Both the position numbers and the translations under genes were made by a program. A DNA stretch of 64,000 nucleotides, taken from assembly GCA_016932255.1 (NCBI GenBank), contig JAFGDE010000015.1, positions 93,694-157,693 on the forward strand, written 5' to 3'. The notes under the pieces are model-generated. The model was not told the DNA's origin, ran no database searches, and was given only the letters and a program-made list of their open reading frames with translations. Positions within the stretch are counted from its first letter, which is position 1; every line of letters begins with the position of its first letter. Source of the DNA: Candidatus Saganbacteria bacterium (GTDB taxonomy: Bacteria; Margulisbacteria; WOR-1; O2-12-FULL-45-9). Of the stretch, positions 37,224 to 41,870 are shown piece after piece.

Positions 37224-37309
37224 GGAGAGGTAGCGAAGTGGTCAAACGCATCTGACTGTAAATCAGACGGCTTACGCCTTCGAAGGTTCAAATCCTTCCC
37301 TCTCCACCA
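37224..37309 (+). tRNA. tRNA-Tyr (anticodon GTA), CCA encoded
   Basis: GGAGAGG acceptor pairs with CCTCTCC; anticodon arm TCTGA-CTGTAAA-TCAGA; long variable arm; T arm GAAGG TTCAAAT CCTTC; discriminator A then CCA. Confidence 0.93.
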
Positions 37310-37367
37310 CCCACTCTTCCTCAAGTACTTCAAACAGACAACAGATCGATCTCTTTTCTGAAAACCT

Positions 37368-37539
37368 GGATTCAAACCCGGGAAAAGATGGGAGGCTCCA
37401 TCGAATCCGCTACAGGCGGATGAGATGGAGGGAAGAAAAACGGAAGTTTTTCTTCCGGGGGATCAGGAAGCGAAGCGACCGTTAAGGGGGCGCAGCCCCC
37501 TTAAGGAGTCAGCCGCAGGCTGACGACGGGTTCTAATCC
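37368..37539. repeat. 172-bp palindromic multi-hairpin element, copy 1 (candidate structured RNA or MITE-like)
   Basis: Ends GGATTCAAACCCG / CGGGTTCTAATCC inverted; four internal hairpins; closely matches 39641..39813. Confidence 0.8.
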
Positions 37540-37550
37540 TTCCCTCTCCA
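37528..37550 (+). repeat. tRNA-Tyr 3'-end-like att site (copy)
   Basis: GGGTTCTAATCCTTCCCTCTCCA vs tRNA TTCAAATCCTTCCCTCTCCA (19/20 over the core). Confidence 0.7.
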
Positions 37551-37751
37551 TTCTCCCTCGCTCTCGCTTCGCTCGTAGCTTCGGAGAATTAACCATTTAT
37601 TATCTCTAGGTTCAAATTTATACTACGTAGTAACGCCAAAGGCGGACGAATAAAATGAGGCCGCAAGAGGGTAGTCCCTAGCGAACAGAGTGAGCCGAGG
37701 GGCTTCCTTCTCCATATATTTATCCCCACTTTTGCTACAATTTCACTAATT

Positions 37752-37811
37752 ATGCTAATTTTGGGAGTGGAAACTTCGTGCGATCAACAAATCCCCACAC
37801 CAACTTATTAA
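37752..37811 (+). pseudogene. tsaD: truncated tsaD 5' end (MLILGVETSCD then stop after unrelated residues)
   Basis: Translation MLILGVETSCDQQIPTPTY*; LGVETSCD is the conserved TsaD/Kae1 N-terminus. Confidence 0.65.
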
Positions 37812-37983
37812 GCAAGCTATCATTTACTGATTGGGTATTCTTTTAATAAAGAAAGACTCTTCTTTTACTAACAACCATTATCAACAAGTTGGTGCGGGGA
37901 CAAACACACCAGGAGATTTTTGGTTTAAAAGCACTACATTTGATCTTGCGGCAACTGGTAACAGTGTTTTGTGTTAGAACTTT

Positions 37984-38751
37984 TTATCCTTTGTTCTCCT
38001 GGATTAATTCCACAAAGTCACTTCTTCTATATTGTAAAGCGTGACCAATATCATTTGCAGTGGCAAGTTGTTCCGCTGAATATTCTTTTATACTAATCAC
38101 TTCTTCGCCGCTGCCACTAAGCTGAAAAGCTTCGATTTCTTCAGGCGTTACTTTTATTGTAAACAAAGTAAAGAAAAGAGAAAAGCCTTTCTTTGGCATA
38201 TGGAATTGTGTTCTGGGAATAAGACGATCCGGATCAATGTCAGCACCAAGCTCTTCGCTAATTTCCCTCTTAGCAGTGATTTCGGCCATCTCATAAGTTA
38301 TTTTCCCGGAACTATCCCTGGCATCAGCTAGATCTTGGGCATTCATCGATCCAGAAGACAGAGCAAAGACCCCTTTCATATCCTGGGCACCTTTACCTCT
38401 TTCAAATAAGACCAGGTTACCACTTTCCGAATTTATCATGGCAATGAGGGCAACGGCGAATACGCCGCCCAAGCTTCTTTCAGGTTTTGGCACAACCCCT
38501 TCGATGACGCCATTTTCATCAACCTTAATAAGCAATTCATTTTTAAACCATCCTGGAAATTTAGCGTCCAAAATCTGAAATCTTTGAGCCCGAGTTGTTT
38601 TCAATAACTTTTCATAAATTGTATCCAGCCTGCCTCCAGGTAAACTAGTGAACTGGCGAAGTTTTTTGCTGGTTCCTTCTGGAAGTAATTTCATGGCTCT
38701 ATGGGTATTAACATAAACAAATTTCACAATAGATGAAACAGTCCCACTCAT
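37984..38751 (-). CDS. Nudix-like hydrolase (degenerate Nudix box)
   Basis: E-x7-REISEELGA matches the core of GX5EX7REUXEEXGU; AT-rich context. Confidence 0.6.
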   Translation of the reverse strand: MSGTVSSIVKFVYVNTHRAMKLLPEGTSKKLRQFTSLPGGRLDTIYEKLLKTTRAQRFQILDAKFPGWFKNELLIKVDENGVIEGVVPKPERSLGGVFAVALIAMINSESGNLVLFERGKGAQDMKGVFALSSGSMNAQDLADARDSSGKITYEMAEITAKREISEELGADIDPDRLIPRTQFHMPKKGFSLFFTLFTIKVTPEEIEAFQLSGSGEEVISIKEYSAEQLATANDIGHALQYRRSDFVELIQENKG

Positions 38752-38907
38752 TATTATTCCCTCCTAGCTTCTGCTATATAAAATTTGATGGGTTTCACTC
38801 CCCACCATATGGACATAGGCTCAGGCTTCGCCTTCGCGCTGACCCCACCTATGTCCAGACATATATCTTTCGACACATTTTGGCAAAATTTCATTTTATT
38901 TGTAACT

Positions 38908-39024
38908 ATTCAGGTCCTTTTAGTGTCTTTGCGTCTTAGCGGCAAATAAAAATAGCCGCAAAGGCGTTAAGGCGCAAAGTTTCGCAAAGGGATCCATAAG
39001 GACAGAAGTACTCGAGACCTGAAT
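38908..39024. repeat. inverted short-period (8-bp) repeat element
   Basis: ATTCAGGTC..GACCTGAAT flanks; CTTTGCGTCTTAGCGGC vs GCCGCAAAGGCGTTAAGGCGCAAAG arms. Confidence 0.6.
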
Positions 39025-39139
39025 ATTTACCCTTTTCTTATAATTATTGGAAATGATCTGGAACATGGTATACCCAAGGATTTAACAAAATCATTTTATA
39101 AAGGTAGTATACTTTCTTTATGAATATAGGAGTATTGCT

Positions 39140-39199
39140 GTGCTTATACTAAGTATCGAAACTTCATGCGATTCAAGAACACATCAGCGATTTTTTTAG
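39140..39199 (+). pseudogene. tsaD: second truncated tsaD 5' end (MLILSIETSCD..., GTG start)
   Basis: Translation MLILSIETSCDSRTHQRFF*; diverges right after the same Asp codon as copy at 37752. Confidence 0.6.
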
Positions 39200-39556
39200 C
39201 TTAATCACAGGATATTTTGATTTGGGAAGAGAATAAAGAATAAAAAGGCACATCGAAAAGTGGCATTTAATTCGAAAGAGGCATAGAAGTCTCTATATTG
39301 GATTCCGAGAGCGGCGAGCCTTGCCTGCCGGCAGGCGGGGCCGCCTCCGGCCCGCTGCGCGACCCTGCGGCGGAAGATCAGTTTTCGTTGGAGGGGAAAG
39401 ATGCGGCGACTTTTCGGCACCTAGCGGCGCCTCAAAGTCGCCGCTCCAACGCAATGGTTTGCGGTAAAAATAAAATGGCTCGAGCCTGTGCCTCGGATTT
39501 TTATAGGCACAGGATCAGGCACAGGAGAAGGAACCCCGAGATGATTGAGGAACTAC

Positions 39557-39583
39557 AGGTTCTAATCCTTCCCTCTCCACCAC
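39557..39583 (+). repeat. tRNA-Tyr 3'-end-like att site including CCA (copy)
   Basis: TTCTAATCCTTCCCTCTCCACCAC vs tRNA TTCAAATCCTTCCCTCTCCACCAC (23/24). Confidence 0.75.
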
Positions 39584-39640
39584 TAACTCTCCTGTTGATC
39601 ATTATCCCAAACAATTAATCAGGTCTTACCTGACCATCAA

Positions 39641-39813
39641 GATTCGAACCCGGGAAAAGATGGGAGGCTCCGCCGAGTCCTGAGCTTGTCGAAGGACGAG
39701 GTGGAGGGAAGAAAAACAGTAGTTTTTCTTCCGGGGGATCAGGGAGCAGAGCGACCGTTAAGGGGGCATAGCCCCCTTAAGGAGTCCGCCGCAGGCAGCC
39801 GAGGGTTAGAATC
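39641..39813. repeat. 172/173-bp palindromic multi-hairpin element, copy 2
   Basis: GATTCGAACCC / GGGTTAGAATC ends; same internal hairpin order as copy 1. Confidence 0.8.
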
Positions 39814-39858
39814 CTTGCCTGACAGCAGTCAAAGCAGACAGAAAAAGTTCAATAGAGT

Positions 39859-40593
39859 CTAAGCCCCAACATCCTGAACAAGAATAATTGAAGTGGTTAT
39901 GTACCGATGCTGAGGTCCACCGCCTCTACCACAATCACCATTTGTAAGATCATACCTACGGTATTTGCCTTTTTCTACCGTTTCTGTCCAACAGTACATC
40001 CCACGTCCTGGTATTAAGCCTTTAACTTGTTCGAGTTCCGTTAGGGTTGGAACCCTGAATTTCCCGCCGGACATAGCACTTAACCGGTTAGCAAATTGCC
40101 TAGCATCAAGTAAACTGACACGAGAAATCTCATGCCCTGACTCTGAACGAGAAAGGAGTTCCTGGAGTTCTTTTGCACCATCACCTTTTATTTCAACTCC
40201 CTTCATAACCTCCCTAAACAATCCAATTGTGACCAAATCATTCATAATGCTTACCTCGTCAGAAATAGGAATCATTCCAGGGAGTTCTATTGTAAACTCC
40301 CGAGCAGCGGCTGCTTGAGAACTCTTATCAATTTCTGCTGCTAGCGCATCAATTTGCCCCACGCTCTTTCCAATCATAGAAGCTGCATTTAACTCAACAC
40401 CAAGGGGCGTAAAGAACCTCACGTCAATATCTTTTACAGCCGAAAACTCCTCGAACTTTCTGATCACGTCTATCGCCCTAGTTCCACATTCATTTCTCCC
40501 TCTGACCTCTATCGCCAAAGCTCTTCCGCGATAATTTACATCCCTTGACACTTGTTGGGCCACTGTTAACCTTCTTGCTCCTGTAATTACCAC
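39859..40593 (-). CDS. hypothetical protein with FGE/SUMF1-like (C-type-lectin-fold) C-terminus
   Basis: SLLDARQFANRLSAMSGGKFRVPTLTELEQVKG...MYCWTETVEKGKYRRYDL...RYITTSIILVQD. Confidence 0.5.
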   Translation of the reverse strand: MVITGARRLTVAQQVSRDVNYRGRALAIEVRGRNECGTRAIDVIRKFEEFSAVKDIDVRFFTPLGVELNAASMIGKSVGQIDALAAEIDKSSQAAAAREFTIELPGMIPISDEVSIMNDLVTIGLFREVMKGVEIKGDGAKELQELLSRSESGHEISRVSLLDARQFANRLSAMSGGKFRVPTLTELEQVKGLIPGRGMYCWTETVEKGKYRRYDLTNGDCGRGGGPQHRYITTSIILVQDVGA

Positions 40594-40747: not shown

Positions 40748-40776
40748 AAAGGACTAATCCTTCTCTCTCCACCACC
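40748..40776 (+). repeat. degenerate tRNA-Tyr 3'-end-like att site at distal edge of island
   Basis: AAAGGACTAATCCTTCTCTCTCCACCACC. Confidence 0.6.
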
Positions 40777-40817: not shown

Positions 40818-41870
40818 ATGGCCCAACATCTTGATTACGGCTTTGATCACTACAAAAAAGGCCTGCATCTTAAAAAATCGAGCCTGACGCCTTGCCGGGT
40901 CATTGCCCAGTACAATTATATTTATGACCTGGCCGCACCGCATGGAGTGGTCTCAGGCGAATGCTCCGGCAAACTGCTCTATGCCAATGAACTATTGCCG
41001 GTAGTCGGCGATTGGGTCCTGGCCGAGGCAATGAACGACCTGGCGATCATCCATGAGATCCTGCCCCGCAAGAGCGCGATCTCGCGCAAAGCCGCGGGCC
41101 GCGCGGTCAGCGAACAGGTGCTGGCCGCTAATCTTGACGCCTTGGGCATAGTTACCGCCCTGGACAATAACTACAACCGCAACCGGGTCGAGCGCTTCAT
41201 TGCCTTAGCGCTGCAGAACAATATCGAACCAATCCTGATCTTCAATAAAACGGATGTTTGTCCGGACCTGGAAAAGACCAAAGAAGAAGTGGCCCGGCAC
41301 TTTAACAGTTATCGCTCATATTTCATCAGCCTGGTCAGCCGGGAAGGCTTACCCCTGCTGCAGAAAGAGGTCCTGGTCCCCCATCAAACGATCGCCCTGG
41401 TCGGCTCTTCCGGCGTGGGCAAATCGACCCTGATCAATTATCTGCTAAAGGAAGAGGTTATCCCGACCAACGCGGTCAGGCAAAAAGACCAGCGGGGACG
41501 GCACACTACGACCAGCCGCAATCTTTATCTGCTCAAGAACAAGGCCATGGTCATTGATAATCCAGGTATCAGGGAATTGGGCCTGTGGCAGGCGGACAAA
41601 GGCCTGGCCCGCGTTTTTTCAGAACTTGAGCAGCTCGCTGCTCAATGCCGCTACCCTGACTGCCAGCATCTTTCAGAGCCCGGCTGTGCCGTGCTGAAAG
41701 CAGTAGCCTCAGGCGAGCTGGCTCAAGAGCAATATGATAACTATATCAAACTGCGCAAAGAGAACGAGTTCCTGAAAAGAAAAACCGATAAAAGCCAGGC
41801 CGCAAATACTAAGAAACGCTGGAAAAGCATCTCAAAAGAGATCAAGAGGATCTATAAGAACAAACACTAG
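40818..41870 (+). CDS. rsgA: ribosome small-subunit-dependent GTPase A
   Basis: ALVGSSGVGKSTLINYLL, VIDNPGIRELGLW, CRYPDCQHLSEPGCAV; circularly permuted GTPase order. Confidence 0.95.
   Translation: MAQHLDYGFDHYKKGLHLKKSSLTPCRVIAQYNYIYDLAAPHGVVSGECSGKLLYANELLPVVGDWVLAEAMNDLAIIHEILPRKSAISRKAAGRAVSEQVLAANLDALGIVTALDNNYNRNRVERFIALALQNNIEPILIFNKTDVCPDLEKTKEEVARHFNSYRSYFISLVSREGLPLLQKEVLVPHQTIALVGSSGVGKSTLINYLLKEEVIPTNAVRQKDQRGRHTTTSRNLYLLKNKAMVIDNPGIRELGLWQADKGLARVFSELEQLAAQCRYPDCQHLSEPGCAVLKAVASGELAQEQYDNYIKLRKENEFLKRKTDKSQAANTKKRWKSISKEIKRIYKNKH

Follow-up and report, generated by a model that had tools for sequence, protein, structure and literature searches.

The two structured elements behind tRNA-Tyr in the window, a 64,000-nt stretch of Candidatus Saganbacteria DNA, belong to a previously uncatalogued family of gene-less, mobile-looking elements of about 0.2 kb that occurs in several bacterial phyla. 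There is good support for reading it as a family of non-autonomous mini-elements located at the 3′ ends of tRNA genes. In the window, two mini-elements lie in a tandem array at tRNA-Tyr, together with two cargo genes, and the array is composed of the following parts.

37224..37309, + strand: tRNA-Tyr(GTA), the target gene (ARAGORN; Rfam tRNA, 67.8 bits)
37291-37309, + strand: first core of the array, the tRNA-Tyr 3′ end, AATCCTTCCCTCTCCACCA
37291..37534, + strand: mini-element 1 unit, consisting of tRNA 3′ end, 58-bp spacer, left box, and folded core (244 bp from core to core)
37368..37380, + strand: left box of copy 1, GGATTCAAACCCG, inverted and T-arm-like (imperfect match to tRNA-Tyr, 9/11)
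37370..37508, + strand: folded core of copy 1 (covariance-model match, 129.2 bits)
37396-37402/37424-37430, + strand: stem 1 of copy 1
37431-37441/37446-37456, + strand: stem 2 of copy 1
37482-37491/37495-37504, + strand: stem 4 of copy 1
37529..37550, + strand: direct repeat of the tRNA-Tyr 3′ end that follows copy 1, GGTTCTAATCCTTCCCTCTCCA (differs from the tRNA at one position)
37984..38751, − strand: cargo gene lying between cores 37535 and 39564, a segment of 2.0 kb (the NUDIX-domain match is weak and falls just under the Pfam cut-off)
39340..39490, − strand: remnant of a serine-recombinase island, the tRNA-proximal end of the large-serine-recombinase type in reverse orientation (by-eye comparison with loci L144 and L147 beside tRNAs)
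39564..39582, + strand: additional exact copy of the tRNA-Tyr 3′ end, ahead of mini-element 2
39642..39784, + strand: folded core of copy 2 (126.6 bits; 84% identity to copy 1)
39642-39651, + strand: left box of copy 2, ATTCGAACCC
39804..39819, + strand: tRNA 3′ end in degenerate form, following copy 2, GGTTAGAATCCTTGCC (from the sequence)
39859..40593, − strand: second cargo gene, 244 aa (no Pfam family)
40756..40774, + strand: final core of the array (differs from the tRNA-Tyr 3′ end at one position)
At 40818: rsgA, which follows the last core

Cores related to the tRNA-Tyr 3′ end are located at 37291, 37535, 39564, and 40756. The first interval between them consists of nothing but a 244-bp mini-element, the second (2.0 kb) is occupied by the NUDIX-like gene and the serine-recombinase island-end remnant, and the third contains mini-element 2, which lies 2.27 kb beyond mini-element 1, along with the gene lacking a Pfam family. 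The initial annotation had described twin elements at 37368-37539 and 39641-39813, 58/59 bp from their preceding cores; they were found at these positions, 84% identical to each other, and the spacing is 58 bp in both copies. The hairpins it had named were also found (CTCC..GA..GA..GGAG, GAAGAAAAAC/GTTTTTCTTC, and TTAAGGGGGC/GCCCCCTTAA), as was its fourth hairpin, which is weaker in copy 2. On the + strand, the folding energies of the two copies are far below those of dinucleotide shuffles (z of −7.8 and −4.7).

Base-pair conservation was then examined in two alignments. In the first, made from 8 sequences without reference to structure, two-sided changes occur in 7 of the 27 pairs, and 98.6% of the pair cells are paired versus 91.0% after shuffling, with none of 500 shuffles being as good. 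In the second, of 24 sequences, the changes involve 21 of the 27 pairs and 96.0% of the cells are paired versus 78.1% (0/500), figures that lean towards the model's fold since this alignment was fitted to the model. These data indicated that the compensatory stem changes proposed from the twin copies are genuine. For the inner hairpin of the first stem (ATCCGC/GCGGAT versus GTCCT/AGGAC), the variation is better explained by the swapping of whole small palindromes in a variable loop than by covariation of single pairs.

The folded core consists of 3 to 5 hairpins, among which stem 2 has five invariant pairs and, in most copies, a C-GNNA-G loop, while the small hairpins are often closed by a C-GNA-G loop. 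Wobbles on the tRNA-sense strand amount to 28 GU versus 3 AC cells, the latter being wobbles of the other strand, and therefore the tRNA-sense strand is the folded one. This agrees with the noncoding RNA suggested in the initial annotation, but the same mark is expected from folded single-stranded DNA. The cGNNAg and cGNAg loop classes are unusually stable in DNA. The loop types thus give a hint in favor of DNA folding, although most of the conserved GNNA loops also satisfy the RNA GNRA rule: 16 of 22 carry a purine at position 3 and are RNA compatible too.

The family was collected stepwise. The window's genome is a MAG of the Margulisbacteria/WOR-1 type, as judged from named relatives of a neighboring rRNA methyltransferase gene. 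A DNA search brought the number of copies in this genome to three and revealed others in three further genomes from the phylum; with the fourth copy of the window's genome, detected by its head motif, the total at that stage was eight. A covariance model built from these eight was run on 383 genomes and detected the family in more genomes of the phylum Margulisbacteria and in other phyla; its counts are lower bounds, few candidates per genome having been scored, and the model E-values rest on a short calibration. With a second model, built from 24 copies, eight full copies were found in genome G299, and up to 8 copies are present per genome. Genomes with matches above 38 bits are G000, G012, G020, G023, G025, G037, G047, G050, G091, G159, and G299. 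Neither 300 kb of tRNA-rich loci nor 1.03 Mb of G159 contigs without the known copies, both used as controls, gave any model match. Weak model matches in G123, G024, G042, G045, G334, and parts of G047 were rejected as members, as they lack a tRNA 3′ copy or are apparently coding. The homologues have covarying stems, and the claim of a novel structured element stands: in an Rfam 15 search of the elements, only tRNA reached the curated gathering score and neither window copy matched a family, and no description of the family was found in the literature, for which the coverage of papers was partial. Nor was the family found in IMG/VR by motif or in PLSDB or INPHARED by similarity; three looser viral-pattern matches were rejected, being located in other sequence without a model match.

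We also noticed weaker model matches that combine GGGGTTCAG or GGGGTGACAG with a GGGGC/GCCCC half and have no tRNA 3′ copy (L214 8127-8239, L215 1308-1632, L216, L213 8088-8209, and L190). They perhaps represent a related second family, and two near-identical copies of this type are present in G334.

At 20 loci an intact tRNA gene predicted by ARAGORN precedes the element on the same strand, no more than about 110 nt away, and the tRNAs concerned are Tyr, Gln, Glu, Cys, Leu, Ser, Phe, Asp, Ala, and Val. In G299, this holds for all 8 strong copies. The unit measures about 175 to 255 bp from the tRNA 3′ end to its copy, with no gene inside. At nearly every tRNA locus, the core is followed by a direct repeat of the 3′ part of the locus's own tRNA, usually spanning from the T-loop/T-stem border to the tRNA 3′ end. 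The summed score of these right copies against their own tRNAs is 299.5, versus 129.8 (SD, 14.2) under label permutation (0/5,000). Ahead of the core, most copies carry a left box that reads as the resident T-arm in reverse complement, such as GGACACAGAATCGA for Phe, AAGGATTCGAAC for Gln, GGCCGGAATCG for Leu, and CTGCCCCACAAGGAC for Gln in G047, and the left boxes had a summed score of 163.5 against the reverse complement of their own tRNAs versus 110.8 (SD, 6.5) for permuted labels (0/5,000). The same relationship is seen within G299 alone, where the cores are 86 to 98% identical and the left boxes still track the resident tRNA (2 of 40,320 permutations as good). Thus, the inverted T-arm-like ends that had been reported for the twin elements are real and specific to the resident tRNA in other copies, but the match is weak in both window copies, as it is in the G000 Gln copy and, by our scoring, in the G299 Cys copy. 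The T-loop part of the right copy often differs from the tRNA sequence, as would be expected if that part belonged to the element and the remainder to the chromosome. The duplication extends beyond the tRNA end by 14 nt in G091 and by 5 nt at Leu(TAA) in G299, a pattern more in keeping with a target-site duplication than with an att core carried by the element.

Unoccupied sites were found in G159, a sister species in the genus of G299: its orthologs of four occupied tRNA genes, Ser(GGA), Leu(TAA), Gln(TTG), and Leu(CAG), all lack an element. At two of them, Leu(TAA) and Ser(GGA), what follows the copy on its right in G299 is similar to the unoccupied G159 trailer; therefore, insertion took place at the 3′ end of the tRNA gene, whose native end lies to the right. 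G010 was unusable as an empty site for the G012 copy, synteny being lost beyond the tRNA. That the structure is an immobile tRNA trailer or regulatory element of the host, inherited vertically, would account for its constant placement near a tRNA on the tRNA-sense strand, but its sporadic occurrence across phyla, the many tRNA types served per genome, and its absence from orthologous tRNAs of a sister species make this very improbable. The many tRNA sites, the target-derived flanks, the empty sites in a sister species, and the lack of an internal gene instead support the non-autonomous mobile unit envisaged in the initial annotation.

Two further observations concern site occupancy. The empty tRNA-Ser and tRNA-Leu loci of G159 (L273, about 10610, and L321, about 1036) are followed by a small GCGAAGC/GCGATAGC hairpin; at tRNA-Ser, the tRNA 3′ end is repeated in inverted form flanking this hairpin (CTCCGCCA..TGGCGGAG). 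In G050, the same element is located beside tRNA-Leu on two contigs (L208 and L209) whose left contexts differ; this may reflect an island insertion that is variable in the population sampled.

In Margulisbacteria, large serine recombinases of one subfamily lie directly beside many different tRNA genes, and beside tmRNA, in each case at the 3′ end (L098 263-1789, L144 to L150, L008 5836, and L011 3759). In junctions of this recombinase type, the distance from the T-loop GTTCRA to CGAAC is 40 bp at 9 of 10 sites and 41 bp at the tenth, which suggests that the universal T-loop serves as a half-site for the subfamily. The far ends of these islands have in common a promoter-like motif, TTGCARCC..GGTATAAT, then GGTTYGA-N18 and a junction that precedes ATTT (L151 12483, L152 3761, L098 at about 12720, L096 on the reverse strand near its end, and L011 6478); this could be the second att half-site or else a small transcript. 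One could regard the folded core as the end of such an island, left behind at the tRNA after deletion of the rest, as a recombinase island sits between tRNA-Glu and the element in G023 and island-end motifs occur ahead of the G000 C27 copy. This explanation is improbable and already disfavored: a folded core is missing from the other recombinase islands that were examined, mini-elements are uniform in size, and the fixed 40-bp GTTCRA..CGAAC junction was not found at the window or the G000 tRNA-Gln mini-elements, while the G023 arrangement reads as an island inserted between the tRNA and a pre-existing mini-element. Moreover, the tRNA-type large serine recombinase is absent from carriers G000, G012, and G025; with this absence and the differing junction, the enzyme was rejected as sole mobilizer.

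Other candidate enzymes were surveyed in carrier genomes, where absences are only suggestive because the genomes are MAGs and some are incomplete. G025 (99% complete) encodes one tyrosine recombinase and G000 two, all Xer-like, and neither genome has the integron integrase IntI; a dedicated integrase is therefore not present in these hosts. No Y1 transposase matched in carriers G037, G050, and G020, whereas matches were found in noncarriers, and reverse transcriptase is lacking in 7 of the 10 carriers, one of them G299 with its 8 copies. On this occurrence, both were rejected as consistent partners. No autonomous partner was found among genes within 2.2 kb of the inspected copies. A tyrosine-recombinase domain fused to an AAA ATPase domain is encoded in a tRNA island (L098 7919-9376; also L107 and L113), and related proteins occur elsewhere in G012 and G023.

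The reading that we favor, and to which we give about an even chance, is that the mini-element is a folded single-strand recombination site at tRNA 3′ ends that is acted on in trans, and that the window array arose by repeated insertion. It is drawn by analogy with integron attC and CTX-type attP sites. The unit is ordered as tRNA 3′ end, short spacer, left box, folded core, and second direct copy of the tRNA 3′ end. Its tRNA-sense strand would fold as single-stranded DNA, in which the left box and the right copy could pair into an imperfect duplex mimicking the target T-arm. A recombinase supplied in trans, either host Xer or the enzyme of another element, might then exchange this duplex with the tRNA gene near the T-loop/T-stem border, an exchange that would leave tRNA function intact. 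Successive insertions of this kind would produce the tandem cores of the window, with the two cargo genes trapped between them.

Ordinary site-specific recombination does not explain how a tRNA-specific left box is renewed in near-identical copies. Left boxes for eight tRNAs on near-identical cores could either have been rewritten at insertion, for instance by snap-back copying, or belong to old tRNA-specific lineages whose cores were homogenized by gene conversion. A rather doubtful alternative is a mobile structured RNA, in which the tRNA-sense transcript folds, the left box acts as an antisense guide to the T-arm, an RNA/cDNA step duplicates the tRNA 3′ end, and snap-back copying makes the inverted box. 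Such copying predicts exactly the geometry seen, and the wobble polarity, the facing GA pairs, the strong covariation, and the variable lengths of the target duplications would all suit an RNA. So would the fit of the left box in most copies, which is at least as good to the intact tRNA as to the right copy, a comparison biased by the selection of boxes on their tRNA match. Against it stand the carriers devoid of reverse transcriptase, the window copy, at which no promoter-like site was found, and G299 Ser(TGA), where simple read-through into an RNA is made less likely by an intrinsic terminator that separates the tRNA from the core. Unlikely, in our estimate, is also a broader idea of self-retargeting elements, which would write a direct and an inverted copy of the target tRNA into each insertion via a folded single-stranded DNA or RNA intermediate, by a previously undescribed mechanism, and so spread over all tRNA kinds.

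Genes for tRNA are classic landing sites of genomic islands, but known integrases each fit one or a few tRNAs. A 0.2-kb element that occurs behind ten tRNA kinds in unrelated phyla, with target-tracking ends on a constant core, raises the question of how a targeting sequence is renewed, and this uncatalogued structured family can now be searched for in genome annotation.

The mini-elements share features with several known systems. The Dehalococcoides ssrA islands are tRNA/tmRNA-targeted integrative elements with the serine recombinase DsiB (PMC3146451). As in the mini-elements, insertion is at the 3′ end of an RNA gene, leaving the intact gene on one side and a direct 3′-end copy of about 20 bp on the other, with tandem accretion and members without an integrase. 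Unlike these islands, the mini-element is a gene-less 0.2-kb unit with a conserved fold and a tRNA-specific inverted box, and it serves at least 10 tRNA kinds. Recombination at attC has been discussed (PMC4792948). Integron attC and the single-stranded attP of CTX-type phages resemble the mini-element in that imperfect inverted boxes surround a structured middle, one strand folds, and recombination is expected beside the right-hand box. When the boxes were compared with attC R″/R′ (RYYYAAC...GTTRRRY), GAAC...GTTC was found in many copies and GTGAGA or GATT in others. In contrast to attC and attP, the mini-element targets tRNA rather than attI or dif, its boxes track the resident tRNA, and the hosts examined have no integron integrase. 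Bacterial MITEs and the REP elements with RAYT (Y1) transposases are likewise short, noncoding, folded, and multicopy; they differ from the mini-element in that its targets and ends are tRNA and tRNA derived, while Y1 is missing in some of its carriers and found in genomes without it. Finally, the ends of IS200/IS605 with DNA guide sequences also pair a stretch 5′ of the hairpins with the junction 3′ of them, but in the mini-element the fold is much larger and the pairing is longer and tRNA specific.
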